27,788 bases of DNA from the IMG/VR virus record IMGVR_UViG_3300032323_000662, positions 1 through 27,788 of that record. One strand, written 5' to 3'. The notes below the pieces were generated by a model. That model was not told where the DNA came from and made no database searches. It worked only from the letters and a program-made list of their open reading frames with translations. The translations under genes and the position numbers were made by a program. The DNA comes from a virus. How positions within the stretch are numbered: the stretch's first letter is position 1; each line of letters begins with the position of its first letter. Below, piece after piece: positions 1,997 through 26,945 of this stretch.

Positions 1997-2004
1997 CAAA
2001 TATA
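1997..2004 (-). promoter_or_regulatory. Host-type -7 promoter box (TATATTTG) for the ERF operon
   Basis: The minus strand reads TATATTTG, a perfect match to the Bacteroidota -7 consensus TAnnTTTG. It sits in the gap between the gene ending at 2017 and ATG 1973, leaving an expected leader of about 15-20 bases. A TTTG (plus 2020-2023) lies 15 bases upstream, slightly too close for an ideal -33 box. Confidence 0.6.
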
Positions 2005-9380: not shown

Positions 9381-9943
9381 AAGATTAGGATGCTGTTATT
9401 GTACCCATTCTCAAGGAAGTTACCGCACATACCTGTGCAAGTAGTTTGCCATTGAGTAATGCATGAGCAATTTTGGAACATTGGACGTAGGTCTGTATCC
9501 TGGTTAGCTGTAGATATGAATAAAGGGAACAGGTTACGGTTAGCAAGTAGCCATCTGATTAAACGCTGCTCAAAGAAACTAGCTTTCTGTGCATAGTGCT
9601 CCATACCAAAGGCTACCTCTGAGCGTGATACGCTTGCTGAGAAGTCACCGCTTTGAGTTTGCAAACCTTTGTTTTTAAGTTGGTAGGTCAACCCAAACAC
9701 TGCATCCTCTGCACTCCTCCAAGCAATCACAGGCTGAATGAACTCTACTAGATTTATCTCGTCAGGGTTAAGCGCTGTGTTATTGTACTGAGTAAGCAAG
9801 TAATTATAGAACGTAGTGCCCAGGATAGGCTGCACTCTTAATGCCGCTTGTGTAGCAATGTAGGGAGTTACGTCAGTAACATCCACATTAGCTGTAATGG
9901 GTGTGTTTGTTTTGAGGTAGGTTTCAGTTATGAAATACAACAT
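9377..9943 (-). CDS. Head-tail connector-like protein (DUF6712-like)
   Basis: This 188-residue protein starts directly on the portal stop (TAATG). The N-terminal TPYIATQAALRVQPILGTTFYNYLLTQYNN and the helical bundle with FIQPVIAWRSAEDAVFGL fit adaptor-type proteins that sit beside the portal in Bacteroidota phages. The C-terminus is Cys-rich (NCSCITQWQTTCTGMCGN), perhaps for disulphide or metal binding. Position after the portal supports a head-completion or connector role. The family name is recalled and was not searched. Confidence 0.6.
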   Translation of the reverse strand: MLYFITETYLKTNTPITANVDVTDVTPYIATQAALRVQPILGTTFYNYLLTQYNNTALNPDEINLVEFIQPVIAWRSAEDAVFGLTYQLKNKGLQTQSGDFSASVSRSEVAFGMEHYAQKASFFEQRLIRWLLANRNLFPLFISTANQDTDLRPMFQNCSCITQWQTTCTGMCGNFLENGYNNSILIL

Positions 9944-11624: not shown

Positions 11625-11633
11625 ACCTATATT
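11625..11633 (-). promoter_or_regulatory. Late start-codon-abutting motif, copy 5 (AATATAGGT)
   Basis: On the minus strand TAATATAGGT is followed directly by the GTG start at 11624. It comes soon after a terminator (11658-11685), so it should begin a new transcript (portal-lysis unit). Confidence 0.65.
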
Positions 11634-11657
11634 AAATTAGACTTATCAAATGTTCAT

Positions 11658-11685
11658 AAAAAAAGCCCCACCATAAGGCAGGGCT
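11658..11685 (-). terminator. Rho-independent terminator after the tail-tube gene
   Basis: On the minus strand, AGCCCTGCC pairs with GGTGGGGCT (two G-T pairs, 4-base loop) and is followed by seven T. It ends the protease-capsid-tube unit. Confidence 0.85.
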
Positions 11686-11708
11686 CTAATATATAGAGAG
11701 GCAGGATA

Positions 11709-12245
11709 TTAAACCGGGATACCAATTGCAGCAAGTGCAGTAGGGTCTACCTCGTATGCTAGGTACTCATTCTCAGCTACCAAAGTAACAGAGTATTTAG
11801 AACCATCCGCACGAGCTGTTCCTGAACCTTCACCTGTAGCAGATAACTGCAAGTATGGGAAGTACCAATACTTACCGTTAGCATCTAATACGATAGCTAC
11901 TAAGTACTCTTGACCTGCTCCAAGGATTTTGATAGCACGAGACTTATCAGCCTCACGTCGATGGAACATTAAGTTGATAGTCTGAGTAACGAATGAGCTA
12001 CCATTAACTAGGTCGATAGTGCTGTCCTCAGTAAAGTTAGATGTGTTTCTGCGGATGTAGTAGTTAGTAAATGTTACGGCAGGAACCTGAAGATTGATTG
12101 CTGTTATTGTCCACCCTGTACCTGCAGATGGGTCTGTAGGAACAATAGATGCAATCTCATCTTGTTGGTTAATCCAAATACCATAAATACCACCACTGTT
12201 GTTGTCGCAACTCTTTAAGATTGCTTCTAATGCTTGACAAGCCAT
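11709..12245 (-). CDS. Probable major tail tube protein
   Basis: This 178-residue protein begins MACQALEAILKSCDNNSGGI. It has alternating strand pattern throughout, with SSFVTQTINLMFHRREADKSRAIKIL, YLVAIVLDANGKYWYFPYLQ and SKYSVTLVAENEYLAYEV. The 'FVT..i.l.f......k......l......va.v.D..G.ywyf' arrangement resembles tail-tube proteins, which stack in hexamer rings around the tape measure. It follows the capsid gene and precedes a strong terminator, which suits an abundant structural protein. Family assignment is by pattern and position. A head-decoration protein is the alternative. Confidence 0.6.
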   Translation of the reverse strand: MACQALEAILKSCDNNSGGIYGIWINQQDEIASIVPTDPSAGTGWTITAINLQVPAVTFTNYYIRRNTSNFTEDSTIDLVNGSSFVTQTINLMFHRREADKSRAIKILGAGQEYLVAIVLDANGKYWYFPYLQLSATGEGSGTARADGSKYSVTLVAENEYLAYEVDPTALAAIGIPV

Positions 12246-12266
12246 TGTGTTAAAGTATTATATAAA

Positions 12267-12280
12267 GGGGGTTGCCCCCC
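12267..12280 (-). terminator. G/C hairpin between capsid and tube genes
   Basis: The minus strand has GGGGG-GCAA-CCCCC followed by TTTATAT. The stem is very stable with a GNRA-type loop, but the T tract is short, so partial termination or 3'-end protection of the capsid mRNA is more likely than a full stop. Confidence 0.6.
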
Positions 12281-12294
12281 TCTATGGATTATTA

Positions 12295-13248
12295 TTAGTT
12301 ATAGTAAACGATATCACCGTTATTCACGAAAGAGAAACCTACTTTCATGTTAGCACGAGTACGGATAATTGGCTCAGCAACAGTATCAGCTAAGTTAACA
12401 GCACGTAAATCAGATGGATCTCCCTCACCATCAAAGGCAAAGATTAAGTTATCTTTCAATGTGATAACAAATTTGTTATTGCTCATACCTGGACAAAGAA
12501 CAATCTTAATACCTAAGTAAGTCAAAGATAAATCTTGAGTAATAAATGCGTTAGTGTTACCTGAAGCTACTCCTAATCGGTAGATGTTTACCAATTGAGT
12601 AGGCATGTAGATACGTAGGTCAGCAGTACGGGATGCAATAGATGCAGGAACCAAAGCAAAAGCAGCCTCTAATTTTGCACCTAATCCACCAACACCTGAG
12701 AATGTAGTGATAGTACCTGTACCACCATCGATAACAGGAGTTACTCCTGGAGGAGGAGACAAAGCTGCATCTAATTGCACTTCATAACCATCACATAAAT
12801 CAAGTGGAGCAACACCACTTACATCACCTCTCCATCGTAGAGCTTCAATTTGTCCGTTAACAGCGTTAGCCATTTCAGACCAGTAGTAGTTAAAGAAATT
12901 AGCTACAGAGAAGTCACCGTTAGAACCTGCTGCCATCTGTAAAGATACAAATGATTGCTCTAGGTCAAACTGACATACTTGAGCCATTGCAGAAAGAGCA
13001 CATACGTCTACTTCATGCGAGCTTAAGTTATCTGCGTTAACGTTAGGGAAGTTACATGGTGATGCAGCCAATAAGTCTGTACCAAAAGTAACTGTACCAA
13101 TTTTAGTTTTGTACTTGATACCAGGTAGAGTACGGAAGTTATCAGCAATCTCAGTGCTTCCTAAATATGCTTGAGCATAGAATGCCTCAGCGTTCGGCGC
13201 TAGTAATGCACTATTATCAATGTTTAAATCAAATCTTAATTTTCTCAT
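12295..13248 (-). CDS. Major capsid protein (HK97-fold type)
   Basis: This 317-residue protein lies directly after the protease/scaffold gene, 11 bases apart, in the usual order. The middle shows the E-loop/P-domain-like arrangement of Bacteroidota phage capsids: FDLEQSFVSLQMAAGSNGDF, FFNYYWSEMANAVNGQIEALRWRGD, then RIYMPTQLVNIYRLGVA and a C-terminal FVITLKDNLIFAFDGEGDPSDLRAVN with RTRANMKVGFSF. The A-domain-like C-terminus ('n.....d......') is characteristic. It forms the icosahedral shell. It is translated from the late unit beginning at 14213, and a stable hairpin follows it. Confidence 0.85.
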   Translation of the reverse strand: MRKLRFDLNIDNSALLAPNAEAFYAQAYLGSTEIADNFRTLPGIKYKTKIGTVTFGTDLLAASPCNFPNVNADNLSSHEVDVCALSAMAQVCQFDLEQSFVSLQMAAGSNGDFSVANFFNYYWSEMANAVNGQIEALRWRGDVSGVAPLDLCDGYEVQLDAALSPPPGVTPVIDGGTGTITTFSGVGGLGAKLEAAFALVPASIASRTADLRIYMPTQLVNIYRLGVASGNTNAFITQDLSLTYLGIKIVLCPGMSNNKFVITLKDNLIFAFDGEGDPSDLRAVNLADTVAEPIIRTRANMKVGFSFVNNGDIVYYN

Positions 13249-13259
13249 TTTGTTTGTTG

Positions 13260-14213
13260 TTATTTTGTTGTGTTAAATTTTACAAAGTTACTTAGTCTTT
13301 GATGTGCACTCAAGGCCACATCCTCTACAATCTCCTCAGACTCTACCTCAGTAGACAATATCTCATCTAGTTGGTTACGCATCTCTGCAATCATTGCAGC
13401 TACAGCGTTCATGTGCTCATCTAATAAAGGTCGTACAATAGCAATGATAGCCTCTGCATCAACTACAGGATCTACCGCCATTGTTTCTTCTACTGTCTCC
13501 TCTTCGATAACAGTTTCTTCTAAGGCTACCTCTTCTGAGGTCTCCTCCATTTCAACATCACGTATCTCAATAACCTCTCCATCTTTTACAACGTAGATTT
13601 TATCCTCGATAGTGTGCTCTCCATCAGGTAACTTGTTCATATTTGTTTTTGTTTTTGTTTGCTCTTTTAATTTCATGCCTAAGTACCCCTCAATAGAGAA
13701 TCCTATTTGGTCTTGTGCTACAAGTTCTGCATAGTATTCCTTATCAGTAACCTGGGCAGTTACCATCAGCGTACCCTGTGGTACTTCAATACCAAATGTG
13801 GAGTAAGCCTTATCTTGTTTTGGGTTGTCTACTATCCATGCCTCAAGTACATAGGCAGGAACGGTCTGAGATTGATCATGCTCAAGGTTAAATAGGTCTT
13901 GGTTAACCATCTTTTGCATGAATTTTCCATGAATTAGCTCTATCTCTTCCTTGGTAAACTTGACATTGTACTCCTCATTAGTATCCTCATCCAATCGATA
14001 TATCTCCATTGGTATCAAAGCAGGTGCAGTGATACGATACTTGAGCTCATCATTAAAAAATAACGGCTTAGCTTGGGAGTTGAATGCCATCCCCTTTACT
14101 TTGATGGCAGGATTAGAAGTAAAAGCTATCTGTTCGATGCCAAGGTCCTCACCATTTTCAGCGTATGCTGGGTCAATAGTAATTTGATAGGTAGGGATTT
14201 TATCTTTAGCCAT
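13260..14213 (-). CDS. Head maturation protease (XkdF-like) with scaffold-like tail
   Basis: This 317-residue protein carries an XkdF-type serine protease domain over about residues 60-185. FNLEHDQS provides His112, VPAYVLEAWIV and GTLMVTAQVTD are core strands, and GFSIEGYLG provides Ser173, the expected order for this family. From about residue 200 it becomes strongly acidic (EETSEEVALEETVIEEETVEE) and then coiled-coil (LLDEHMNAVAAMIAEMRNQL), a scaffold-like part. Fusion of protease and scaffold in one gene is known in several phages. It would direct capsid assembly and then cleave itself and the capsid N-terminus. An AATATAGGT motif lies one base upstream of its ATG. Confidence 0.85.
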   Translation of the reverse strand: MAKDKIPTYQITIDPAYAENGEDLGIEQIAFTSNPAIKVKGMAFNSQAKPLFFNDELKYRITAPALIPMEIYRLDEDTNEEYNVKFTKEEIELIHGKFMQKMVNQDLFNLEHDQSQTVPAYVLEAWIVDNPKQDKAYSTFGIEVPQGTLMVTAQVTDKEYYAELVAQDQIGFSIEGYLGMKLKEQTKTKTNMNKLPDGEHTIEDKIYVVKDGEVIEIRDVEMEETSEEVALEETVIEEETVEETMAVDPVVDAEAIIAIVRPLLDEHMNAVAAMIAEMRNQLDEILSTEVESEEIVEDVALSAHQRLSNFVKFNTTK

Positions 14214-14214
14214 T

Positions 14215-14223
14215 ACCTATATT
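14215..14223 (-). promoter_or_regulatory. Late start-codon-abutting motif, copy 4 (AATATAGGT)
   Basis: On the minus strand TAATATAGGT lies one base before ATG 14213. It is back to back with the plus-strand promoter box at 14234-14241, only 10 bases away. Confidence 0.65.
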
Positions 14224-14233
14224 AAAAAAAACG

Positions 14234-14241
14234 TATATTTG
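14234..14241 (+). promoter_or_regulatory. Host-type promoter box for the plus-strand gene pair
   Basis: TATATTTG matches TAnnTTTG exactly. Initiation about 6 bases downstream leaves a leader of about 10 bases before ATG 14257. No convincing -33 element is seen. The box overlaps the alternative TTG start at 14239, which argues against that start. Confidence 0.5.
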
Positions 14242-14256
14242 TTCAAAAATTTAACT

Positions 14257-14805
14257 ATGGTAACTATCTTAAACAGGGAGATTCCCAACCAAATTGAAGA
14301 GCTCACTATTGAGCAGTTTGAAGCAATCACTGATATTAATAACAATCAGGAACTTGACCCCATTGATAAGCACCTCCAGGTGTTTGCTTACCTTGGTATC
14401 CCTGAATCAGAGTTTTGGGATTATGATGTAGCTGATTTTGTAGGGATGGTAAGAGACTTTAACAGCAGTGAGCAGAAAGACTATCCAACAGTTGAGGAGA
14501 TAGAGCTTGAGGGCTATGTGTACAAAGCACAATTAAAGTTAACTGTACGTGATACTAAGATGATTGAAAAGATAACAATAAAAAAAGAGAAAGGATATGT
14601 ATCCGAGATGTTAGCTGTGATGTTTAAACGGGAGGACCTTACCTCTGCTGAGCACTATGCAGATGCACACATCAAGCACAAAGCAAAGCTCATCCGTAAA
14701 TTGAATGCAGCTATCTCCATTCCTTATATCATGTTTATTGCTAAAAAAATATCACAGCAAGCCAATGATCAAATTACCGAAGCAGTGGAATCAAGTAACG
14801 CTTGA
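14257..14805 (+). CDS. Candidate tail assembly chaperone A, plus-strand
   Basis: This 182-residue acidic helical protein starts MVTILNREIPNQIEELTIEQFEAITDI. The 'ip....eLTieQF..i..i' opening is shared with the next gene, so the pair are diverged paralogues or share a domain. Members of this general type are found in Bacteroidota phages near tape-measure genes. By position and overlap they could be tail-assembly chaperones (gpG/gpT-like). No catalytic motif is seen. The 3' end contains an A7 run and overlaps the next gene in another frame. The orientation is opposite to nearly all other genes, and ATG 14257 is chosen because the promoter box covers the TTG at 14239. The role is inferred. Confidence 0.6.
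   Translation: MVTILNREIPNQIEELTIEQFEAITDINNNQELDPIDKHLQVFAYLGIPESEFWDYDVADFVGMVRDFNSSEQKDYPTVEEIELEGYVYKAQLKLTVRDTKMIEKITIKKEKGYVSEMLAVMFKREDLTSAEHYADAHIKHKAKLIRKLNAAISIPYIMFIAKKISQQANDQITEAVESSNA
14743..14749 (+). other. A7 run in the overlap of the two plus-strand frames (possible slip site)
   Basis: In the first frame the run reads AAA AAA A.., and in the second frame it reads .AA AAA AA, shifted by +1 (equal to -2). Either a +1 or a -2 slip of tRNA-Lys keeps full pairing and would enter the second frame with no stop in between. Independent initiation at 14765 is the simpler alternative. Confidence 0.35.
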
Positions 14806-15505
14806 GCAGTTCATTGAATTTAGCGGCATAGATAGAGAACAGGGAGCCTACCACTACAATAGTGAGGCTCTCTCTATCTTATCAGATGAGCCTATGGAGG
14901 TCATTGAGGATATGGATGTAGATGAGATGGCAGAACTTGTAGCAGAAGCCAAGTGGTGCACCTCTGAGCCATCCAAAATATATAAGCATGAGCTCTTTGG
15001 AATGAAGTTTAAGCCACTCAACAAGCTCACTCTTTTCGAGTACATTGACCTGGACTATTATTTCACAGATAACTATATTACAAATCTTCACAAAGTATGT
15101 GCCATCTGCTACCGGCATACAAAGATAAATGAGTGGGGGGATGAGATACTAGAGCCCTATGAGTTTGACTGTACCATTAGAGCTGAGAAATTCCTTGACC
15201 TACCAATCACAGATGTGTATGGTATAGTACATGAGTTCCTTAAGTACAGGGATACATTCCTAAAAAACTATGAGAACCTGTTTAGTGGTGAGCTTGACCA
15301 AGAGCTTAGTGAGGAGGAGCGCAGGGAGTTAGATCCCGAAGAGGTTAAAGAAATAGAGAAAGAACAGGCTCAGACTAAGTGGTCATGGGAGCAAACTATC
15401 TACGGCCTTACCAATGGGGATATAACTAAGAGTGAAAAGGTAGGAGCCCTACCTCTCATCTATGTGTTTAATGTACTGTCTATGAAAAAAGAGTTAGACA
15501 TCTAA
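14765..15505 (+). CDS. Candidate tail assembly chaperone B, plus-strand
   Basis: This 246-residue protein from ATG 14765 reads MIKLPKQWNQVTLEQFIEFSGIDREQ, matching the LTIEQF opening of the gene before. The middle is acidic and aromatic (FEYIDLDYYFTDNYITNLHKVCAICYRH), followed by a long acidic helix with LDQELSEEERRELDPEEVKEIEKEQ and a final compact segment WSWEQTIYGLTNGDITKSEKVGALPLIYVFNVL. This end pattern resembles C-terminal parts of tail-assembly proteins. An upstream in-frame ATG at 14705 would add 20 residues that do not look like protein. It overlaps the first gene by 41 bases in another frame, and its last 12 bases overlap the minus-strand gene 15494-15946 tail to tail. Confidence 0.6.
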   Translation: MIKLPKQWNQVTLEQFIEFSGIDREQGAYHYNSEALSILSDEPMEVIEDMDVDEMAELVAEAKWCTSEPSKIYKHELFGMKFKPLNKLTLFEYIDLDYYFTDNYITNLHKVCAICYRHTKINEWGDEILEPYEFDCTIRAEKFLDLPITDVYGIVHEFLKYRDTFLKNYENLFSGELDQELSEEERRELDPEEVKEIEKEQAQTKWSWEQTIYGLTNGDITKSEKVGALPLIYVFNVLSMKKELDI

Positions 15506-15946
15506 TGGACTTCCTTGAGTAAATCCTGGAGGTGCATATAGTGCCTCAAATGTGTAGACAATTTTTTGCTGTCTTTCAAGTACCTCAACTGCCTCTATCA
15601 ATGGATACTTTTTAGTTAACCATTCAGTGTACTGCCGATATATTTCTGCTGTTATACCTGCATTGTTTAGCTCATCAGTAAATTGTGCTACATAATCACG
15701 AGGGGTAATCACTCCACCATTCCAAAGATAAGCTCCATTGTTAAGAAAGATAAAGTAGTACATGGCTACTATCTGTATCTCTAGCTTTTGGAAGCCTGTT
15801 ATTTTAGCATTGATACGGATACTTTCTACAAGTGTACCCTCACCATCCACAATATCATTCCTTAAAATTCTCTTGAGTATGGTAGCCATTTTCCTACGTG
15901 TAGGATATAGCACATTGAACTCCCCTGTGTTACCGTATCTAGCCAT
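15494..15946 (-). CDS. Structural protein candidate (tail/head completion)
   Basis: This 150-residue protein has RYGNTGEFNVLYPTRRKMATILKRILRNDIV, then GTLVESIRINAKITGFQKLEIQIVAMYYFIFLNNGAYLW. The pattern 'GtL..Sir......g.....i.i....Y..fln.G' recalls small neck or tail-completion proteins of the HK97-gp10 type, but only loosely. Its end KIVYTFEALYAPPGF is well ordered. It is last in the short unit beginning at 16845, after the tail-fibre-like gene. I place it in virion assembly. The exact job is unknown. Confidence 0.6.
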   Translation of the reverse strand: MARYGNTGEFNVLYPTRRKMATILKRILRNDIVDGEGTLVESIRINAKITGFQKLEIQIVAMYYFIFLNNGAYLWNGGVITPRDYVAQFTDELNNAGITAEIYRQYTEWLTKKYPLIEAVEVLERQQKIVYTFEALYAPPGFTQGSPLDV

Positions 15947-16082
15947 TTGTTAATGCTTTATATATTTCCATTGTATCATCCACTAAAATGATACCCTTAT
16001 CAGTTTCTACGTGTAGCTGTGTATCACTCACCACCTCAATGGGGCCTGTGATTGTGTATTCTATTCCGTTAATACTAAACAT
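15939..16082 (-). CDS. Small protein (47 aa) between fibre and completion genes
   Basis: From ATG 16082 it reads MFSINGIEYTITGPIEVVSD, a compact beta-rich small domain ending MEIYKALTNG. The start overlaps the tail-fibre stop by eight bases and the stop overlaps the next start by eight. The ATG at 16124 would extend far into the fibre gene, so it is rejected. No family is recognised. A small virion or chaperone protein is plausible from position. Confidence 0.6.
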   Translation of the reverse strand: MFSINGIEYTITGPIEVVSDTQLHVETDKGIILVDDTMEIYKALTNG

Positions 16083-16845
16083 ATGCGAATACTTTGAATA
16101 AATTAATGTTAGCAACATCCGCAATATTTTGGCATTGCATGGTGAATATAACGTAATTATCTACTGACCTGTTAAATGCTACGTTGACTATGTTACCTGT
16201 GGTGTAGTCTGAGAAAGCAGCATTAGAATAGCTAGTTAAGTTAGTACCATTGTAGCTAAAATTTCGTTCAACATATCCTGTTTGATGGCCGTTATTCATT
16301 GTAAATAAAGTATTGAATAAGGTAGCACCTGTTAAGCTGTTGGTAGTGTTAAAATATATCCTACCATACAACTGCCCTACGGCACCACTCACTCTGTACA
16401 TTCTGAATATCAACTGCAGGATATTGTTAGTGCCTAATGTGTTGGCAGGTATCAATAGTGAATGACATATAGTGATAGCTGTGCCTGTAGTGTTAGTACC
16501 TAGAATACCTGAGAAGCCTAATAGCTTAGGACCTATGCTAACATCCCCACTGCCTACCAATGAGTTGCCGTTCACTGTCTTTATGTTAGTGCCACTTACT
16601 AATGTATCCTGCTTAGCATTCAAGGCAGTCTGTAAATCAGTCTGAGCAGATAGCGTTCCTGTGATACCTCCCCAGGTTGCACCACCACCTGATGCTGCTG
16701 CAATTATCTGAGCACCTGTAATGGCTGTGTTAGTAGGTACCCCTCCTGACATAGAGGTGCACTCTATCAAGTCAGTAGGCTGTAGGTTGCCGGTATGCGG
16801 TGTGAGGTTAGGTCTCCAATCTCCCCACCAAAATGGTGAACTCAT
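16075..16845 (-). CDS. Tail fibre / receptor-binding-like protein
   Basis: This 256-residue protein contains LQTALNAKQDTLVSGTNIKT followed by NGNSLVGSGDVSI (about residues 71-104), a motif typical of phage tail-fibre shafts. After this a beta-rich C-terminal domain (Asn/Thr-rich strands, about 110-256) looks like a trimeric head domain for host binding. The N-terminal MSSPFWWGDWRPN may attach to the tail. It heads the unit that starts at the AATATAGGT copy at 16846-16854. It is the best candidate in this window for host recognition, though the hub protein could carry other receptor contacts. Confidence 0.75.
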   Translation of the reverse strand: MSSPFWWGDWRPNLTPHTGNLQPTDLIECTSMSGGVPTNTAITGAQIIAAASGGGATWGGITGTLSAQTDLQTALNAKQDTLVSGTNIKTVNGNSLVGSGDVSIGPKLLGFSGILGTNTTGTAITICHSLLIPANTLGTNNILQLIFRMYRVSGAVGQLYGRIYFNTTNSLTGATLFNTLFTMNNGHQTGYVERNFSYNGTNLTSYSNAAFSDYTTGNIVNVAFNRSVDNYVIFTMQCQNIADVANINLFKVFAYV

Positions 16846-16854
16846 ACCTATATT
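16846..16854 (-). promoter_or_regulatory. Late start-codon-abutting motif, copy 3 (AATATAGGT)
   Basis: On the minus strand TAATATAGGT is followed immediately by ATG 16845, in the 29-base gap after the tail-completion gene. Confidence 0.65.
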
Positions 16855-16874
16855 ACTTTAAGCCTCCGAAATGT

Positions 16875-17309
16875 TTATAGTGGCACAGCACAATCAGTCC
16901 AATCATTCACCGTTAACGTGATGTTCATAACATAACCTGCAGCATAGTCAAGCAAGTCATTGTTAATAGCTTGGAATGATGGAAGCCCTATGACATCAAA
17001 GGCATAGTCATTGCTATCCATGTAGTAAATATAAAGGTCATTCAATATTTGCTGTGTATCACTAAGGATAGTGATGATATTAGCCCTATCCTTTTGGATG
17101 ATATCAAAGCAGTACACATCAAAGTTAAACTCAGATGTATTCTCCGTAGGGTTAACACTTACCGGCACCACAAAAACAATAGGATACTTCTCATCCTGAG
17201 TAGCGAAGTTGTATAGCTGTTCCTTAAAATCACTACCTACTTTCTTAACCTGTAGATGATTAGTGTAGAATAGCTCAATGTGATCTATGATTGCTTGTAG
17301 TGAGTTCAT
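16875..17309 (-). CDS. Tail completion/terminator-like protein
   Basis: This 144-residue protein starts on the tape-measure stop (TAATG). The arrangement IDHIELFYTNHLQVKKVGSDFKEQLYNF, then YPIVFVVPV, FNFDVYCFDIIQKDRANIITILSDTQQILNDL recalls small proteins that cap the tail tube in Bacteroidota phages (a gpU-like role). It ends MNITLTVNDWTDCAVPL. It is last in the tail unit b-c, after the tape measure. The role is by position and general pattern, not by a firm match. Confidence 0.55.
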   Translation of the reverse strand: MNSLQAIIDHIELFYTNHLQVKKVGSDFKEQLYNFATQDEKYPIVFVVPVSVNPTENTSEFNFDVYCFDIIQKDRANIITILSDTQQILNDLYIYYMDSNDYAFDVIGLPSFQAINNDLLDYAAGYVMNITLTVNDWTDCAVPL

Positions 17310-19528: not shown

Positions 19529-19529
19529 G

Positions 19530-22250
19530 TTATGGCTTGTAATATCTTATTTCAATAGTAGTGTTGACTAGGTAGTTATCTACAAAGCCTACTCCTATCT
19601 GTGTTGTGAATATATCTATAGTGTTATTTGATACAACGTACTGAGCACTAATCACCCCATCAAAGTTTACGTTGTTAATCATGACCGTTAGCTCACTCCC
19701 TAGGATAGCACCTAAGTCCCAATTTTGTATAGCTCCCTGATACTCCCCTTGGTTTTGTCTAGTCCATACTATATCTCCAAAGCTAGACTCTTTGACATCT
19801 ACTGTTGGGTCAGATGTTCCACTCTGAGATAGCAATGCTGTGTATCTGTAGTATGGAGGGTCAACAGGTATGCCATTCACCTTACCGTATACAGTTAGGT
19901 TATCAGTGTAGATACCATCCTCCTCAATCGTAGCATCATCTGCTACCACTACCACCTTGAGCCCTGCGTTAACATTGTTACCCTTACCGGTTACCACACC
20001 TGAGGTGCTGTTAGGTATGATGTTTCTATTAGAGTCCTTAGTTTTAACAATAGTGCTGTTAGCTACCTGAGTGATAGCACCAATACTTCCTATCCCTACG
20101 CCTGGTGTTGTAAAGCCTGGAGCAAACGGCATGAAGTTTACCTCATTGTCTATGCTGATAAGTTCTACCTGTGTGAGCTGATTGGCATTGGCATTGTAAT
20201 CAATGACCTTGTTAATGTTCCACCATGAGTTATCAATCCTAATCTTATCATTGAGCTCTAAGGGTTGGATGTCAGACTCTTTAAGATTAAAGTAAGCAGT
20301 CAACATCTTACCGTTGTTTATCTGCCCCATGGTCCTCCTCCAATATCTATTGTAAAGATTGTTATCGGTTAGGGTACTTGGCATATAGTAGTAGTATGCA
20401 CAGGTAGCGAAGTTCAAATCCCAGGTAGGGTTGAGTGGGTTATCGAAGTGGCCAACATACGGGTAGCTAGTTATGTTAGTCATACCTACTGTACCATAGT
20501 CAAAGATACTAAACGCTTGACATGGGGTGAGTCCTACCTCTGCCGTAGAGTCATATAAGATACGGATGTTAGTATCAGGCTGTGCTCCTGCTAGCATTGG
20601 CACGTATGCACCAAAGGTAGAGCCATCAATCGGAGTAGGGCTGAACAATACATCCTTAGTAGTTACATCCTTTACATACTCGTTGTCAAAGATAACTTCT
20701 GCTTGTCCGTAGATTTGATTGGTAGCATTGGTGTAGATCGTATTAGGTGTATCCTTATCTGCCTTGTATGTTAGTATTACTTTCTTACTTGTTAGCTCAG
20801 GTAGGAATGACAGTGACTGCTCCCTATCCTTGGCTAGTAGGTGAGTCCAATTTACCTCTTTGCCTGCATCGTAGTAATCATCCCTATGGATTAGGTTGAG
20901 CTGATTAGGCTGAGTCTTATCTACATCCGCATACAGGTTGAACATGTTGAATATAGCCTTAACAAAATCGTTCTGCTTAATCTTTTTAGGCACATAGTCA
21001 TTCACCTCAATGGTACCACCAATGGCTACAATGTTACTGCTCAGGCTTATGCTTATCTCTGCCGAAAGTATATTGAGTGCTAGCTGTGTGTTAGGAGTAT
21101 AGAATGTACTTAACGAAGTCTGTGCAGCATGTATCTGCATCTGTATATTGGTGAGCTGACTGAGTAGGGTAGGGCTACTAACCTGCTGAGTAAAGGATAC
21201 TGTATCAGTTGCGAATGTAGTAGTACCTACAGGTACGGATGCGGGGCCCACATGAGTAGGTCCTTGCACAATAAAGTTGTTATATGTGTTACGATACCTT
21301 ACCCTGTAGAATGGAGGTAGTGTAACTGTTGCAGGTACAGTACCCGTATTGATGAGGTCAAGGGTGTAACTTACCACCACAGTAAACTCATAGTACTGAG
21401 CATTGGCTGAGCTGATATTGAATGGGGTAGTGTATGTTCCTGTGACCGGATTAAAGATACCTTGTGGGTCCTCTATCTCAGTTAGTCCTGTGAATGTATA
21501 GAATGGTGTTTGAGGAATTACCTGAGCAGGTGAGGTCACTGTACTCGTTGTAGTTTTCTCTGCTCGCACCACGTAATCAGCATAGTCAAAGTTATCTATA
21601 CCTCCGTTGTATGGAATAACTAGCTTATCAAACTTAGTATCACTTAGGCTAGCCCAATTGTATGTAAAGCCTGCACCTTGGAAGATACGGTCAAAATAAG
21701 TCTTAGCAAAGATGGCAGGCTTGAATTCCTGAATAGTATTTATTACACTACCGCTACCTGGGAGGAAATACTTGAAGCCATCCACCTCAGTGTTACTAAA
21801 CCTGTTTACTACATTGAACGCATCGTATGTATGGTTGAGGTCACTGAAATCTATATCGGTTAGCTCTAGGTTATTTATGGCTGTAAAGAAATCTGCCTTG
21901 CTTTCCTTAATCAATACCTCATATTCTACATGCTCCTCATACTGCTCAGTGAGCTGTACCTTTTTAACTGCTGTGAGTTGTAGGCTAGCGTTCTCCATGA
22001 CCGGTATCCCATCCTGGATAACTGAACAGGTAGTCACTGCATTGATGTTGAATGTGCCGGATACAATGTTAACATCATAGTAGTGGTTGAGTAAGTTATT
22101 GTTATTCTTACTGCCTACCAATGTAATGGTCTTAGAAAAGTTACCTTTCCTTTGACTTATATCCCTGATGTCTCCTACCTGAAATGTCAAAGGGAATGAA
22201 GTACCCTCCTTAACATCAAGGTAGCCTGTAGCTAATTGTATCCTAACCAT
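19530..22250 (-). CDS. Baseplate hub / tail-associated protein
   Basis: This 906-residue protein is the largest in the window. It opens LATGYLDVKEGTSFPLTFQVGDIRDISQRKGNFSKTI, a hub-type N-terminus seen in Bacteroidota phage tail proteins. A middle block NDFVKAIFNMFNLYADVDKTQ...IHRDDYYDAGKEVNWTHLLAKDREQSLSFLPELTSKKVILTYK resembles the phage hub (gp27/gp44-like) domains. The C-terminal part (from about 750) is beta-rich and fibre-like. It should sit at the tail tip, bind the distal tail protein and contact the cell. It overlaps the end of the 488-aa gene by eight bases. It precedes the tape measure in transcription order, the reverse of most siphophages. Confidence 0.7.
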   Translation of the reverse strand: MVRIQLATGYLDVKEGTSFPLTFQVGDIRDISQRKGNFSKTITLVGSKNNNNLLNHYYDVNIVSGTFNINAVTTCSVIQDGIPVMENASLQLTAVKKVQLTEQYEEHVEYEVLIKESKADFFTAINNLELTDIDFSDLNHTYDAFNVVNRFSNTEVDGFKYFLPGSGSVINTIQEFKPAIFAKTYFDRIFQGAGFTYNWASLSDTKFDKLVIPYNGGIDNFDYADYVVRAEKTTTSTVTSPAQVIPQTPFYTFTGLTEIEDPQGIFNPVTGTYTTPFNISSANAQYYEFTVVVSYTLDLINTGTVPATVTLPPFYRVRYRNTYNNFIVQGPTHVGPASVPVGTTTFATDTVSFTQQVSSPTLLSQLTNIQMQIHAAQTSLSTFYTPNTQLALNILSAEISISLSSNIVAIGGTIEVNDYVPKKIKQNDFVKAIFNMFNLYADVDKTQPNQLNLIHRDDYYDAGKEVNWTHLLAKDREQSLSFLPELTSKKVILTYKADKDTPNTIYTNATNQIYGQAEVIFDNEYVKDVTTKDVLFSPTPIDGSTFGAYVPMLAGAQPDTNIRILYDSTAEVGLTPCQAFSIFDYGTVGMTNITSYPYVGHFDNPLNPTWDLNFATCAYYYYMPSTLTDNNLYNRYWRRTMGQINNGKMLTAYFNLKESDIQPLELNDKIRIDNSWWNINKVIDYNANANQLTQVELISIDNEVNFMPFAPGFTTPGVGIGSIGAITQVANSTIVKTKDSNRNIIPNSTSGVVTGKGNNVNAGLKVVVVADDATIEEDGIYTDNLTVYGKVNGIPVDPPYYRYTALLSQSGTSDPTVDVKESSFGDIVWTRQNQGEYQGAIQNWDLGAILGSELTVMINNVNFDGVISAQYVVSNNTIDIFTTQIGVGFVDNYLVNTTIEIRYYKP

Positions 22251-23709
22251 TCACCATGTCGTTATTAGCTAGCTTAATAGTAATGCTTTGCTTGATTAGA
22301 TTCTTATTGCGTTGCTTGTAGTACTCATAGGTAGAGTTCACTATGTTGCAGCTGATGTACTCAGTGCTCTCAGGGATGTCGCAGCTCTCATCGTAGTTGC
22401 TTATCTTGAAGTATGTATAGGGTGAACTAACTAACTCAGTGAAATAGGTAGCCATCTCCTGTGTCATCCAATCAGTATTCAGGTCAATGGTTTCCTCTAC
22501 TGTTACATAGCTGTTGATGTACCCCCTATCTATCAGGTCATAGGTCCACTCAGTGCTGGCTATCTTACCGAGTACATCCATGTTGTACTGCTCCCGTTGT
22601 ACGGTACCTTTTTGGTATGCTCTACCTGTGAATGCAAAGCTACCCCATGAGCCATAACGGTCAAGGAATATAATGCTGTACTCTTGCTTCTGTGTTCTAC
22701 GATCTATGTTAACTCGGTAGCTCTGTGTTACCTGTGCACCATTGTGCTCATAGTAGTACTCATAGTATTGAGTGGTAGGTTTAATCAATGGCAGTGAGCC
22801 TGAGACTACAGTCAAGGTGCCTGCGTTGTTAGGACCTACCGCGTTCCCTGTGATGTGGTCAGTGGCTCCCACTGTCTTTCTCAACACATCACCCCCATCA
22901 TTGGTAAATACTATCCTGTGCGTTCCTCCAGGTATAGCACCATAGACTGCGTTCATCCATAGGTCCTGAGATAAGGTAGAGTAAAAGTTGGTAGCAGGGA
23001 TGGAGGTAAGGAACTTGTCAGTGTTACTGCTCAAGTTATAATTAGCCTGGTTCCATGACGGCCACTGAGTCCAAGGTAGTGCACCATTGAACACATAGTT
23101 ATTCAGGTTATCAATGATGTTGTATGTCACAGTCTTTCTCCCATCTGCATAGGTTATCTGCACATCCTTGTTAGCATTCGTTATGGAGCTCCATAGGAAG
23201 TTAATCACAATGGCAGTAGGTGTAGCTACGAGTACAGTGTATAGCCCATCAAGGTTAGCATTCACTCCGCCTAGCCCTGTTTGTGTTAACACTATCTGAT
23301 CACCAACAACAAATGAGTTAGTACCATTCAGCTGTACTCTGCCAACATAGGGAGCAGTTAGGTACTGAGTCATGGCTGAGGTAAACGTGGTCGTAGTAAG
23401 ATATTCCTCACCTACCTTGACATCATACTTGTAATGGCTATCCGTTGCATTGTACACTGTGGTGTTGGTAGGGAATAGGTCATAGCTTACATAGGCTTGA
23501 AGTAGCTTGCTTAGGTCTATCTCACCATACCCTGTAGTGTAAACAGGGAGCACCCTGTACTCAGCTATCTGATTGGCAGTGCCTGACTCGTATACCTCAA
23601 AGATATACTTAAAGCCTCCAAGGTTTTTGTTGGTGCTGTCATAGATATACTTGACAGAGTTGTATGCAGGGGTGAGCACTTGAGGTTGTGCCTTTAATGT
23701 CATTGCCAT
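22243..23709 (-). CDS. Distal tail / tail-tip protein candidate
   Basis: This 488-residue beta-rich protein begins MAMTLKAQPQVLTPAYNSVKYIYDSTN. The C-terminal third has FLDRYGSWGSFAFTGRAYQKG and VEETIDLNTDWMTQEMATYFTELVSSPYTYFKI, a pattern I associate with tail-tip (Dit-like) proteins of Bacteroidota phages that pack against the hub. Position directly after the terminase and before the hub supports this. No enzymatic motif is seen. The start is fixed by the AATATAGGT motif that abuts ATG 23709, after a 31-base gap from the terminase stop. Confidence 0.6.
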   Translation of the reverse strand: MAMTLKAQPQVLTPAYNSVKYIYDSTNKNLGGFKYIFEVYESGTANQIAEYRVLPVYTTGYGEIDLSKLLQAYVSYDLFPTNTTVYNATDSHYKYDVKVGEEYLTTTTFTSAMTQYLTAPYVGRVQLNGTNSFVVGDQIVLTQTGLGGVNANLDGLYTVLVATPTAIVINFLWSSITNANKDVQITYADGRKTVTYNIIDNLNNYVFNGALPWTQWPSWNQANYNLSSNTDKFLTSIPATNFYSTLSQDLWMNAVYGAIPGGTHRIVFTNDGGDVLRKTVGATDHITGNAVGPNNAGTLTVVSGSLPLIKPTTQYYEYYYEHNGAQVTQSYRVNIDRRTQKQEYSIIFLDRYGSWGSFAFTGRAYQKGTVQREQYNMDVLGKIASTEWTYDLIDRGYINSYVTVEETIDLNTDWMTQEMATYFTELVSSPYTYFKISNYDESCDIPESTEYISCNIVNSTYEYYKQRNKNLIKQSITIKLANNDMVNG

Positions 23710-23718
23710 ACCTATATT
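23710..23718 (-). promoter_or_regulatory. Late start-codon-abutting motif, copy 2 (AATATAGGT)
   Basis: On the minus strand TAATATAGGT is immediately followed by ATG 23709. It heads the tail unit (tip, hub, tape measure, completion protein). Confidence 0.65.
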
Positions 23719-23740
23719 ATTCTATCCTAATGTTTTGTTT

Positions 23741-24892
23741 CTAGAATGCATAGTAGCTATCATCCGTATAGTACTCCTGCCGTATGTGAGTGGTCGCGTA
23801 CCTGATTGCATCCATGGCATCATCGAATAACTTGACCGGCTCATCTGTTATGAAGTCCCCTACCTTTTTCCACTTGTAATTCTCATACTCTCGCTTGAGT
23901 GCCTTATCATCCTGGCATATAACCCCAAAGGTCTTGAGGTTGTCTATCCCTTTCTTAACTACCTTATTAGCGTTTATCACGTCATACCCTGCTATGTTCA
24001 TCTCCTGTATTATTTCAGGCCTTGAGTAATCAGCTAGTATGCTAACAGTTTGCTCTATGCCTAGGCTGCCTAGCTTCTCGATGAGCATGGTGGTAGTCAG
24101 GTAGCTCTCATAGATAACAGGCTCAACATAGATGTCGTTATCACAGTAGTACACCCTCATGAGTGCAGTGGGGTGATTGTATCCAAAGTCTAACCCATAC
24201 ACGTACTTGACAAACCTAGCAGGCCTATGAGCCACGAATGACCATTGGCTGTATATGTTACTCTTGCTGATTGCTTTCTCACCCAAGGCATAGATTTGAT
24301 ACAGTGCCTCATCCGTTCTCTTGAGGTCCTCGATTTGTGATCTAATGCTCTGAGGTAGGAATGGGTTATCTTTGTACGTTGACTTAATCATGATGCTCTC
24401 CTCCTGTGGTAGCTCATATAGCCATGAGGTTGACTCACTTGGGTTGTAGTCAAAGATTAGCTTAGACTCCGTTCTCATGTTCAACTGAGTGAAGTCATCG
24501 AAGTATAGCTCATTGGCTTCGTTACACCATGCAATGTCTCTCTTGCGGCCTCTAATCTTCTGCTCATCATCCACACTAAAGAATTCAACTATGGACCCAT
24601 TAGGGAACGTGTAGATGTGCTCACTCTTATTGTGTGCCTCTACTGAATAGATATTAAGTTCCTTGAGTATCTCAATGAAGTCTCTGAGTACTGTAGCCCT
24701 TAGAGCAGGGAATGTCTTACGGATAACAGATACTACCTTATGGTTGTTCTGTAGGCAATAGATGATAACTAACTGACAAAGGCTATAGGTCTTTGAGGAA
24801 CGTGACCCTCCCTCGTTAATTACGAACCTAATCCCAGGGTCATTGAGTGCCTCGTAGTTTTTCTCAAATATTACTGTGCTCTTTATTTCCAT
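23741..24892 (-). CDS. terL: Terminase large subunit
   Basis: This 383-residue packaging ATPase-nuclease has Walker A EGGSRSSKTYS (28-37), coupling region RKTFPALRATV (58-68), Walker B DIAWCNEANEL (about 119-129, Glu125 catalytic), and a nuclease domain with YGLDFGYNHPTALMRV (about 231-246), ILADYSRPE and a final DDAMDAIRYATTH acidic cluster. These are the landmarks of the Terminase_3/PBSX-type family. It cuts concatemers and drives DNA through the portal. The length is on the short side (usual 400-450), but all motifs are present. A 55-aa gene overlaps its start by 29 bases. Confidence 0.93.
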   Translation of the reverse strand: MEIKSTVIFEKNYEALNDPGIRFVINEGGSRSSKTYSLCQLVIIYCLQNNHKVVSVIRKTFPALRATVLRDFIEILKELNIYSVEAHNKSEHIYTFPNGSIVEFFSVDDEQKIRGRKRDIAWCNEANELYFDDFTQLNMRTESKLIFDYNPSESTSWLYELPQEESIMIKSTYKDNPFLPQSIRSQIEDLKRTDEALYQIYALGEKAISKSNIYSQWSFVAHRPARFVKYVYGLDFGYNHPTALMRVYYCDNDIYVEPVIYESYLTTTMLIEKLGSLGIEQTVSILADYSRPEIIQEMNIAGYDVINANKVVKKGIDNLKTFGVICQDDKALKREYENYKWKKVGDFITDEPVKLFDDAMDAIRYATTHIRQEYYTDDSYYAF

Positions 24893-25031
24893 TAGCTATT
24901 TGAAATGCATTCATTAGCATAGCCATCTGCCTTCCATCGGTAGCTACTGCCCTCCTATCTATCCTAACCTGTACGCCTTTCATTTTGTAGATGTAGTCCT
25001 CCACCACAGCACACATGAACTCAATCTGCAT
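24864..25031 (-). CDS. Small protein (55 aa) between terminase subunits
   Basis: Starting at ATG 25031, 11 bases inside the end of the small terminase gene, the frame reads MQIEFMCAVVEDYIYKMKGV and ends NGNKEHSNI, running 29 bases into the large terminase gene. A second start, ATG 25016, is possible. It fills the gap between terminase genes exactly and is helical and basic in the middle (KGVQVRIDRRAV). No family is recognised. It could be a packaging accessory protein. Confidence 0.6.
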   Translation of the reverse strand: MQIEFMCAVVEDYIYKMKGVQVRIDRRAVATDGRQMAMLMNAFQIANGNKEHSNI

Positions 25032-25443
25032 CCGGTCTCACTATGGTTACCTGTATGCTCTCTATCTTATCTCCCTTAGTGGTAGTGTCAACCCTCTCAG
25101 TTAAGTTGTTGAGACGTTGAGTAATGGATGCATTGTACTGTCCGGTCATGCCTCCCTCTATCTGGTCCATGCGGATTGCCTCCTCTATACGCGAGCAGAT
25201 TGTGGCATATTCAGAATATCTATCTCCCTTGTTACAAAAATAATCATTGACTGTCTGCCCTTTCTCAGCAGCAAAAGTCCTAAAACCCACTTGAGTAAGC
25301 GGCCTCTCCAATGGTACTGCTGTAGCCTCACCTGTCTTTGTGGATAGGGAATAGGAGTACCTGGGGTTTTCTTTACACCACCTCTTATAGGCTTCAAATA
25401 AATCCCACATATCATCGGGAGTAGGTATATGCTTAGGCCTCAT
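25021..25443 (-). CDS. terS: Terminase small subunit (gp3/Terminase_4-like)
   Basis: This 140-residue protein starts MRPKHIPTPDDMWDLFEAYKRWCKENP. The later part YSEYATICSRIEEAIRMDQIEGGMTGQYNASITQRLNNLTERVDT is typical of gp3-like small terminases of Bacteroidota phages: helix pairs for oligomer formation followed by a short C-terminal tail (ESIQVTIVRPDAD). It should recognise the packaging site and recruit the large subunit. Position directly before the large terminase gene supports the call. The start overlaps the end of the 70-aa gene by 11 bases. Confidence 0.85.
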   Translation of the reverse strand: MRPKHIPTPDDMWDLFEAYKRWCKENPRYSYSLSTKTGEATAVPLERPLTQVGFRTFAAEKGQTVNDYFCNKGDRYSEYATICSRIEEAIRMDQIEGGMTGQYNASITQRLNNLTERVDTTTKGDKIESIQVTIVRPDAD

Positions 25444-25645
25444 TAGACTCGTTTTCTACTGCTTTATATTTCTTACTCTTAGCCTCAGACTCTACCTCTT
25501 CAAAGAGATAACCTAACCCCACAGATGTAAGGTGCTCAGCTTCGTTAGCTGTGTCCTCAGTTACTGTGAATGAGGTCTCAAACCCCAACGGATTGTACCT
25601 GGTAATATACTGACCTAGGTATTCATTTTTTACTTTCTTTGTCAT
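25433..25645 (-). CDS. Small conserved-type hypothetical protein (70 aa)
   Basis: This protein has a basic N-terminus (MTKKVKNEYLGQY), then GFETSFTVTEDTANEAEHLTSVGLGYLFEEV and a charged tail. It lies in the first late unit before the small terminase, overlapping genes on both sides. No membrane segment or enzymatic motif is seen. It may assist packaging by position, but I do not recognise the family. Confidence 0.6.
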   Translation of the reverse strand: MTKKVKNEYLGQYITRYNPLGFETSFTVTEDTANEAEHLTSVGLGYLFEEVESEAKSKKYKAVENESNEA

Positions 25646-25799
25646 ATTCGTATTGTTCTAAAAATAGCCATGCATAATAAAGCACTACCCATATCCCAAA
25701 GGCTCTGCATCCGTAGAAGTAATTATCACGGATTAAAAACACAGCACCGGTCAAGGCAGTGAATGTAGCCAAGATACTAATTATTTGAGATAGTCTCAT
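25623..25799 (-). CDS. Small two-span membrane protein (58 aa)
   Basis: ATG 25799 starts MRLSQIISILATFTALTGAV with a first hydrophobic segment, and a second segment IWVVLYYAWLFL lies at about residues 36-47, then a charged tail (EQYEYDKESKK). It heads the first late unit and its ATG is abutted by AATATAGGT. The sigma-like gene ends inside it (25777) and the 70-aa gene begins inside it (25645). The function is unknown. Confidence 0.6.
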   Translation of the reverse strand: MRLSQIISILATFTALTGAVFLIRDNYFYGCRAFGIWVVLYYAWLFLEQYEYDKESKK

Positions 25800-26322
25800 A
25801 CCTATATTGTAATTTACGCAAATTTTGTTTAATTTCTCTAATCAGATAGTGAGCAGATGTTACCGGTATATCAAAGTACTTAGCCATCCCTCGAGCTGTG
25901 GTGTATCCCTTGTCAATGTATGCCTCGAATACTATCCTGTGCACATGATCATCTATCTCGCTTCTGTATATCTCTATCAGCCCCTTGTGAGTACTGTATA
26001 TTTTATCCTCTAGTATCTTAGCCTGTAGGTCCTGCTCGTTATCCTCCTGCTCAGATGCATCATATTCCATTGATGTTACCCTATCATCCCTATGGCTGAG
26101 TGAGGTATTCCATAGTATCTGATATTTGATGGTGTTTAGCAGGTAGCTTTTCACCTGGGCTTCGCTCTCAGTATCCTCATTGATGCTTAGTACATGGAGG
26201 TATGAGTTATTAATAACCGTATCCGCCTCAATATTACTCCCCATCTTAGTGAGAAAATACAGCGTGTAAGCCCTGACCTCATAGTAATGGGTGCTAATGT
26301 ACCTGTCTAAGACTCTTTTCAT
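25777..26322 (-). CDS. Sigma-factor-like protein, candidate late activator
   Basis: This 181-residue protein has an N-terminal part YYEVRAYTLYFLTKMGSNIEADTVINNSYLHVLSINEDTESEAQVKSYLLNTIKYQILW that is consistent with sigma region 2. A C-terminal part HRIVFEAYIDKGYTTARGMAKYFDIPVTSAHYLIREIKQNLRKL resembles region 4 with its HTH (about residues 135-168). It is therefore a small ECF-like sigma factor. It lies immediately before the first late unit, and the first AATATAGGT copy is located within its own 3' end. It is a candidate for directing RNA polymerase to that motif. The similarity is moderate; a general HTH regulator is the alternative. Confidence 0.65.
   Translation of the reverse strand: MKRVLDRYISTHYYEVRAYTLYFLTKMGSNIEADTVINNSYLHVLSINEDTESEAQVKSYLLNTIKYQILWNTSLSHRDDRVTSMEYDASEQEDNEQDLQAKILEDKIYSTHKGLIEIYRSEIDDHVHRIVFEAYIDKGYTTARGMAKYFDIPVTSAHYLIREIKQNLRKLQYRYETISNN
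25800..25808 (-). promoter_or_regulatory. Late start-codon-abutting motif, copy 1 (AATATAGGT)
   Basis: On the minus strand CAATATAGGT is followed immediately by ATG 25799. It lies within the 3' coding end of the sigma-like gene and heads the packaging unit. Confidence 0.65.
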
Positions 26323-26509
26323 ACCAATTCATAAAGTCTTTGTACCACACTTTCCTCCTAACAGATGCACAGAAGCACTCCCTAGGCTGTGGACCATCAT
26401 ACTTGACCCGTATTTTATAGAGCTGAACACAGGAGTGCTTAGAATACTTTACAGCATCCGCAGTAGCATCTATCTTATCTATCGTATCTATGTCAGTTTG
26501 TTCAAACAT
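26294..26509 (-). CDS. Small Cys-containing hypothetical protein (71 aa)
   Basis: From ATG 26509 the protein reads MFEQTDIDTIDKIDATADAV then CVQLYKIRVKYDGPQPRECFCASVRRKVWYKDFMNWYE. The start overlaps the membrane-protein stop, while the reading from 26596 would lie mostly within that gene. ECFCA and the basic RRK segment are notable. It ends inside the start of the sigma-like gene (29-base overlap), so the two may be co-translated. The function is unknown. Confidence 0.65.
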   Translation of the reverse strand: MFEQTDIDTIDKIDATADAVKYSKHSCVQLYKIRVKYDGPQPRECFCASVRRKVWYKDFMNWYEKSLRQVH

Positions 26510-26736
26510 AATTCTAAAATGTATGCACCCAGTGCTGCCTGACATGCTAGGATAAAATCTTGATGCCAAGCTAATGTAAGCCAAAAGGCTACACACTTAC
26601 TACAGCTCAATGCATCTAGTAAGGGTATAGCCCATGTGCCAATTTTAAAAGACATGTATATCTTGGTCAAGGTTGCTTGCAATGGTTCAAAATTGCACCA
26701 CCACCATGCCAAGGGTATTAATGTTAGGAGTTCCAT
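26488..26736 (-). CDS. Membrane protein with CxxCxxFW motif (DUF1360-like)
   Basis: This 82-residue protein has hydrophobic parts at about 1-15, 30-42 and 50-75. DALSCSKCVAFWLTLAW holds a CxxCxxFW motif of the DUF1360-like small membrane proteins, whose function is not known to me. It is in the early region between HTH and sigma-like genes, with 13-base and 22-base overlaps. The Cys pair could bind metal or form a disulphide. It could alter host envelope or exclusion, but this is only inference. Confidence 0.65.
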   Translation of the reverse strand: MELLTLIPLAWWWCNFEPLQATLTKIYMSFKIGTWAIPLLDALSCSKCVAFWLTLAWHQDFILACQAALGAYILELCLNKLT

Positions 26737-26945
26737 GACTTCAAATATACTCTAAAAAATGAATCATATATCTCAGTGGTCACATTTCTACCCTGCATGA
26801 AGCGGTATAGCTTGGCATAGTTTACCCCCATATCCTCAGATAGATGGGTTAGCTTATATCTCTTGGATAGCTTGCCACGTATCTCTCTACGCATCCAATC
26901 AGATAGCTGTTGGTCCTCAGAAAGGTAGATCGTCAGTGCTCTCAT
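26724..26945 (-). CDS. Small HTH (XRE-like) DNA-binding protein
   Basis: From ATG 26945 this is a 73-residue protein with LSKRYKLTHLSEDMGVNYAKLYRFMQGRNVTTEIYDSFFRVYL, the 'l..la...g.....l...l.g' pattern of XRE-like HTH domains. The N-terminus is basic. An upstream reading (26984) would overlap the SSB-like gene by 68 bases, so I prefer 26945 with a 29-base overlap. It is probably a transcription regulator and a second candidate for binding the palindrome at 7011-7029. Confidence 0.65.
   Translation of the reverse strand: MRALTIYLSEDQQLSDWMRREIRGKLSKRYKLTHLSEDMGVNYAKLYRFMQGRNVTTEIYDSFFRVYLKSWNS
26742..26749 (-). promoter_or_regulatory. Possible host-type promoter box inside the HTH gene
   Basis: The minus strand reads TATATTTG, five bases before ATG 26736, the same spacing as at the primase gene. 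No -33 box is visible and the site lies in coding DNA, so chance is possible. Confidence 0.3.

Follow-up and report, generated by a model that had tools for sequence, protein, structure and literature searches.

Putative sigma-driven, probably leaderless late promoters in an uncultured freshwater phage group

Five near-identical sites precede the late units

The window analysed here, i.e. the whole stretch of 27,788 nucleotides (nt) of IMG/VR virus record IMGVR_UViG_3300032323_000662, carries on its minus strand five near-identical sites, the putative late promoters P1 to P5, each at the start codon of the first gene of a late unit, and a gene for a sigma-like protein whose 3′ end contains P1. 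The features are as follows, with protein lengths in amino acids (aa) and DNA lengths in base pairs (bp).

25777..26322, minus strand: candidate gene for an extracytoplasmic function (ECF)-like sigma factor, 181 aa, the proposed reader of P1–P5 (weak NCBIfam matches, AlphaFold2, Foldseek)
25800..25830, minus strand: P1, with AAACA (25826–25830), spacer, CAATATAGGT, then the ATG of 25623–25799; within the 3′ end of the sigma gene
23710..23740, minus strand: P2, with AAACA, spacer, TAATATAGGT, then the ATG of 22243–23709 (putative tail unit)
16846..16876, minus strand: P3, with AAACA, spacer, TAATATAGGT, then the ATG of 16075–16845 (putative fibre/tail unit)
14215..14244, minus strand: P4, with GAACA, a spacer of one base less, TAATATAGGT, an A, then the ATG of 13260–14213 (head unit)
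11625..11655, minus strand: P5, with GAACA, spacer, TAATATAGGT, then the GTG of 11274–11624 (portal-lysis unit)
11662..11687, minus strand: intrinsic terminator (11-bp stem and T tract), closely preceding the upstream box of P5
25623..25799, minus strand: 58-aa membrane-like protein, first gene of unit 1
25021..25443, minus strand: terminase small subunit (phrog_606, E 8e-14)
23741..24892, minus strand: terminase large subunit (PF04466, phrog_2)
13260..14213, minus strand: XkdF-like head protease, first gene of unit 4 (PF14550)
12295..13248, minus strand: probable major capsid protein (phrog_1623, virion structural, E 2e-6)
9943..11271, minus strand: portal protein (phrog_11226, PF04860)

An exact search of the whole window revealed AATATAGGT five times, on the minus strand only, against a chance expectation of 0.47; none of 100 shuffles held five copies. 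Four copies take the form TAATATAGGT, and that at 25800 reads CAATATAGGT. Motif and start codon are separated by 0, 0, 0, 1 and 0 nt for the motifs with upstream ends at 25808, 23718, 16854, 14223 and 11633, respectively, the start codon behind the last of these being GTG. The first-pass annotation of this DNA was therefore accurate in reporting five minus-strand copies of a nine-base motif and no other, a longer form shared by four of them, a gap of zero or one base ahead of every start codon, and one copy (that of P5) shortly behind a strong terminator. What it overlooked, in describing the site as a nine-base motif, was a second box: alignment of the upstream sequences revealed that all five copies have [A/G]AACA ahead of them, 20–21 bases from the motif's first A, so that the site takes the form of a two-part promoter. 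Likewise, the sigma-like gene had been placed just before the first copy, which is correct as to adjacency, but the motif at 25800–25808 actually lies inside the last codons of the open reading frame (ORF) 25777–26322.

Scanning both strands with a two-box matrix trained on relatives of the phage gave 26–29 bits for the five sites and 10.4 bits for the runner-up, and no further place in the window, on either strand, had both boxes. Triplet shuffles, serving as control, reached maxima of 7.5–20.4 bits, under all five real sites.

As to the unit names proposed in the first-pass annotation, packaging (small and large terminase subunits, TerS/TerL), head (XkdF-type protease, virion protein) and portal-lysis (portal, endolysin) were borne out by family matches; tail (23709) and fibre (16845) remain putative names drawn from weak matches and gene order only. 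The early and late classes were assigned from gene function.

The two-box site is conserved at the unit heads of related phages

The window belongs to a group of metagenomic phages in IMG/VR with genomes of ~28–30 kb, represented by 564 terminase relatives. Of the motif occurrences in 160 relative loci, 389 were on the late strand and 3 on the opposite strand; when the second box was required as well, 232/232 relative loci had a site, with 554 on the late strand vs. 2 on the opposite strand. The motif search in related genomes that had been suggested as a check thus revealed enrichment at the start codons of the five unit heads: the exact motif was present in 197 of their 209 distinct 60-nt upstream regions and in none of those of 32 other genes. 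A two-box site within 110 nt upstream was found at 95–100% of heads and 0–4% elsewhere. Between the boxes, the distance was 21 or 20 nt (22 once) in every distinct site, and 21 nt in all 44 distinct sites of P1.

An IMG/VR pattern scan that used no protein information retrieved at least 116 new stretches; among the matches listed, proteins of this phage group are encoded by 111, whereas the other five encode none. The sigma gene is absent from the five chance-match records and present in all three divergent relatives tested.

The overlap of P1 with the sigma gene allowed DNA-level conservation to be told apart from protein-level conservation. Across 101 distinct sigma genes, the codons under the upstream box are synonymously frozen (AAA in 101/101, CAA in 100/101), as are those under the downstream box (CAA in 101, TAT in 101, AGG in 96 and TAT in 101, each of 101). 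The spacer codons vary, and tyrosine is often encoded by TAC elsewhere in the gene, unlike under the boxes. Both boxes are therefore kept as DNA, and not merely as protein sequence. Relatives with P1 have the C-terminal tail QYRY(E) or QYKY(D), and in those without P1 this tail is missing; the end of the sigma protein appears to be dictated by the promoter embedded in its gene.

That P1–P5 are promoters and are read by the phage's own sigma factor is, in our judgement, highly likely. Each would consist of an upstream box [A/G]AACA, a spacer of 15–16 nt and a downstream box (T/C)AATATAGGT abutting the start codon. Early expression of the sigma factor (25777–26322) would come from a host-type promoter (TATATTTG at 26749–26742). 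The factor would join the host core RNA polymerase, with its region 4 on AACA and its region 2 on AATATAG, and so activate the five units for structure and lysis. Transcription would begin right at the start codon or no more than ~2 nt from it, yielding leaderless mRNAs, and the position of P1 inside the last sigma codons would allow the packaging unit to be transcribed without re-transcribing the sigma gene. Taken as a whole, this scheme of sigma-driven, leaderless late promoters is probably the best explanation of the locus. The two boxes, their fixed spacing, their restriction to unit heads, their conservation at the DNA level, the concerted motif change described below and the host-type boxes of early genes are seen directly in the sequence; from them we infer binding by the sigma factor, timing and the exact 5′ ends. 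A phage-specific late promoter had been the preferred reading of the first-pass annotation, and the upstream box at fixed spacing, the confinement to unit heads, the frozen synonymous sites and the concerted shift all support it.

Late mRNAs are likely leaderless

Among 447 distinct two-box sites from all clades, the first open start codon lies at 0 nt from the motif in 327, at 1–3 nt in 48 and at 11–12 nt in ~22; in 375/447, then, translation could start 0–3 nt past a −10-like box. At four of the heads the start codon is always ATG or GTG, and at all heads variation in codons 2–12 falls mostly on third positions, indicating that translation begins there. P5 lies directly behind the intrinsic terminator, so its transcript must itself supply the start codon. 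With a conserved start codon directly next to the promoter, and with the terminator so close to P5, the late mRNAs are quite likely leaderless or near-leaderless, as judged from these sequence features.

The strongest challenge, unlikely in our view, accepts promoter and sigma factor but has RNA starting a few bases inside the ORF or further upstream, with another start codon or a read-through mRNA being translated. Canonical geometry speaks for it and against leaderless late mRNAs: with 4–5 nt from a host −7 box and an upstream box near −33, the transcription start site would fall 2–3 nt downstream of the A of the ATG, i.e. inside the start codon, unless the discriminator is short, and the conserved bases do reach right up to the start codon. 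Yet the start is kept as ATG or GTG and coding evidently begins there at all heads, as the third-position bias indicates, and in most sites with a displaced start codon the base after the motif is still a purine. Moreover, the start codon lies 9 nt past the −10 A, within the 8–14 nt quoted for −10 boxes (Zheng et al. 2011, PMC3160421).

A displaced start codon is seen in a P2 subclade (L061, L074, L042, L045), where both boxes are intact and the ATG lies 11 nt downstream. Between motif and ATG, this subclade has a conserved A-rich 11-nt leader, AAAGA[C/G]AAGTA, at P2 only, and so offers a natural leadered late promoter.

A candidate sigma factor and the co-variation of its sites

All NCBIfam matches of the 181-aa candidate are sigma factors (sigma-70/ECF models), weakly scored, with a best hit of 22 bits and E 1e-4 and a range over sigma families of E 1e-4 to 7e-3; in two divergent homologues, TIGR02937, the general sigma-70/ECF model, matches end to end (E ~0.002). 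Two AlphaFold2 models (predicted local distance difference test scores of 75.6 and 80.4) depict two helical domains with a loose linker between them. Foldseek matches are almost all sigma factors, ECF types leading (E 1e-3 to 1e-1), and the top 31 are sigma or sigma-like, rank 1 being a chain of an RNA-guided transcription complex that is presumably the sigma factor of that complex. By VIA-align, residues 1–87 fit region 2 (Z 8.0, 81 residues, 4.1 Å) and residues ~91–181 fit region 4 (Z 8.9, 76 residues, 2.2 Å). Each score is modest, and together they are consistent. ECF promoters typically have an AAC upstream, as does the box here. Given the predicted fold, the weak family matches and the operon position, the product of 25777–26322 is very probably an ECF-like two-domain sigma factor that reads P1–P5.

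Co-variation of gene and site points in the same direction. In clade B (L401, L403–L420), the sigma protein is ~52% identical to that of the window, and the motif reads CAATATAAGT at P1, P2 and P3 (all members covered), CAATATAAAC at P4 and CAATATACTT at P5. No change is seen in the upstream box, the spacing is equal or one base different, and the start codon is adjacent to the motif except at P5, where it lies two bases on. All five heads have thus undergone the motif change jointly, which is what one would expect were the reader a diverging protein. In clade C (G001–G003, L426–L430), the core TAATATA is retained and P2 stands ahead of a non-homologous gene; upstream of P5, a T tract and the remnant of a similar hairpin are found. 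The 58-aa gene that heads unit 1 is gone together with P1 in G001–G003. A trans-acting DNA reader would be expected to give rise to sites of this kind, which track the unit head and not the gene and change together genome-wide. The suggestion in the first-pass annotation that the sigma-like product reads the motif gains support from the predicted sigma folds and from the shift in the clade with the diverged sigma gene.

Several observations weigh against this assignment. The candidate passes none of the curated family cut-offs, which lie far above its scores, no Foldseek match reaches E 0.001, and for a helical protein VIA Z values of 8–9 count as modest. Clade C is loose at the last three motif positions and has the site at fewer heads, and the concerted motif change is essentially one evolutionary event, that of clade B. 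Pfam and profile searches of PDB sequences with the candidate gave no sigma match.

Such scores leave some room for a different arrangement, in which a host alternative sigma factor uses the sites as promoters, with the phage protein acting as an accessory DNA-binding factor; a phage could in principle use a host sigma. We regard this as improbable: the protein has two sigma-like domains and its matches are nearly all sigma factors, its gene accompanies the sites in the three divergent relatives and occurs in none of the five chance-match records, and the motif has shifted at all heads in precisely the clade with a diverged copy of the gene.

More improbable still is that the motif is a translation-start signal within longer, leadered mRNAs, a Bacteroidota substitute for the Shine-Dalgarno sequence, and not a promoter. 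Its abutment on start codons would suit such a signal, and A-rich contexts tune initiation in Flavobacterium johnsoniae, which does without Shine-Dalgarno sites (PMC6847099). However, the second box is also conserved at a fixed 20–21 nt, and the motif occurs only at the five unit heads, never at other genes of those units. This alternative, raised in the first-pass annotation, is further disfavoured by the P2 subclade, in which both boxes persist despite a shift of the start codon by 11 nt downstream, and by the terminator before P5, behind which no upstream leader is expected.

Promoters of a T7-like single-subunit polymerase with 3-nt leaders are, in our view, very unlikely. TATAGG and TATAGGT bear a superficial likeness to T7-class start sites and promoters, but recognition here covers ~30 bp in two separate boxes, and no RNA polymerase domain was found among the large window proteins. 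A PF00940 search of 18 relatives gave no match, and neither did its positive control.

The candidate sigma factor has no real match in 50,697 phage records. For other proteins, comparison with cultured phages gave matches of only ~32% for the terminase and 25% for the portal, and none for the 488-aa protein and the capsid protein.

Host-type promoters precede early genes

Early genes carry a different element, the −7 box TAHHTTTG of Bacteroidota primary-sigma promoters. In the window, the relevant features are:

26742..26749, minus strand: host-type −7 box TATATTTG before the sigma operon, 5 nt ahead of the ATG at 26736
26488..26736, minus strand: first gene of the sigma operon, 82 aa, function not assigned, no Pfam match, conserved upstream of sigma
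26294..26596, minus strand: second gene of the sigma operon; the listed ORF begins at a GTG, its true start being unsure
14234..14241, plus strand: host-type −7 box TATATTTG for the divergent plus-strand gene at 14257, overlapping the P4 upstream box on the opposite strand
1997..2004, minus strand: host-type −7 box TATATTTG before the early gene 1425–1973 (ERF), with a box–ATG gap of 22–28 nt

In distinct relatives, TAHHTTTG precedes 93% of ERF genes, 100% of genes at 14257 (n = 77) and 91% of those at 26488; gene 6740 has it as well, in a sample of six sequences only. Within 110 nt upstream of the late heads, the same pattern is absent at four of them (0% of relatives) and occurs in 16% at the fifth, that of 16075, in line with the earlier statement that the late motif is unlike the host TAnnTTTG box. 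The presence of host-type boxes on early genes, the sigma operon among them, implies a two-step cascade. From promoter type and gene content, the host group would be of the Bacteroidota type.

At the sigma operon, the final G of TAHHTTTG lies 3–5 nt before the ATG in most relatives. As 4–5 nt separate the −7 box from the start of transcription in F. johnsoniae (PMC6847099), the sigma operon message would be leaderless too. At replication genes, ~14–50 nt lie between the host-type box and the start codon, vs. the 3–5 nt at the sigma operon. We lean slightly towards a lineage-wide arrangement in which the late programme is entirely leaderless through the phage's own ECF-like sigma factor, the sigma operon is leaderless from a host-type promoter, and replication genes are leadered.

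At P4, the upstream box (14234–14244) is the reverse complement of the TATATTTG box that serves the conserved plus-strand genes 14257–14805 and 14705–15505, so that an early and a late promoter use the same bases back to back. Ahead of the capsid gene, the window also has a host-type box, TAACTTTG (13283–13290), which is found in only ~18% of relatives.

Relation to known systems

In phage T4 (gp55) and SPO1 (regulatory sigma factors), a sigma factor made early redirects the host core RNA polymerase to a late promoter set. A review of late transcription in T4 is available (PMC2988020). The system described here resembles these in its predicted early phage sigma factor and phage-specific late promoters, here recognized by sequence analysis. 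It differs in having no real match to a cultured phage, two boxes vs. the single T4 late box, and promoters fused to start codons, one of them embedded in the sigma gene. With ECF (group 4) sigma factors (TIGR02937), the candidate shares its length, the presence of regions 2 and 4 only, its predicted fold and the AAC of the upstream box; in contrast, it scores under the curated cut-offs, an anti-sigma partner was not identified, and its putative role is in phage late control.

The late sites also differ from Bacteroidota primary-sigma promoters (TAHHTTTG at −7), which this phage uses for its early genes and sigma operon, in consisting of TAATATAGGT plus AACA. Leaderless genes have been described with a −10-like box ~12 bp upstream (Zheng et al. 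2011, PMC3160421), similar to the −10-like element ~9–10 bp from the start codon found here. Unlike those genes, however, the cases described here account for every one of a phage's five late units, and most mRNAs of the apparent host group are leadered; in F. johnsoniae, 87% of mRNAs have leaders of >10 nt (PMC6847099).

Phage sigma factors with late promoters and leaderless genes are each known; the novelty lies in their combination, in how compact it is, in the placing of one promoter within the sigma gene and in the apparent host group. For phage ECF sigma factors or leaderless phage late genes in Bacteroidota, no direct precedent was found in the literature covered, subscription papers lying outside its scope. 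The proposed system would amount to a complete, minimal early-to-late switch, composed of one small sigma gene and five 30-bp promoters, in a widespread group of uncultured freshwater phages. Late messages would, on this scheme, be leaderless in Bacteroidota, a group whose mRNAs do without Shine-Dalgarno sites and in which leaderless ones are thought uncommon; the system also offers both a very compact sigma–promoter pair and a natural series of sigma–promoter co-evolution. Were the lineage-wide leaderless late programme to hold, the phage would by design start translation in two separate ways, within a host group where leaderless mRNAs are rarely used.

Contig context of relatives

A search for bacterial hosts with the terminase against GTDB contigs yielded one phage contig in an 800-kb metagenome-assembled genome, which does not settle the host. 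This clade B contig (L401, JAIXRY010000011.1), from a pond assembly labelled only 'bacterium', may reflect faulty binning instead of a link to a host. Another clade B relative (L418) sits at one end of a far longer contig of 91,599 bases with one terminase copy, which may be either a prophage or an assembly chimera. Finally, G016 and G017 (the contigs of L047 and L048) have near-identical two-box matches near both ends, suggesting end-redundant complete genomes of ~28.5 kb.

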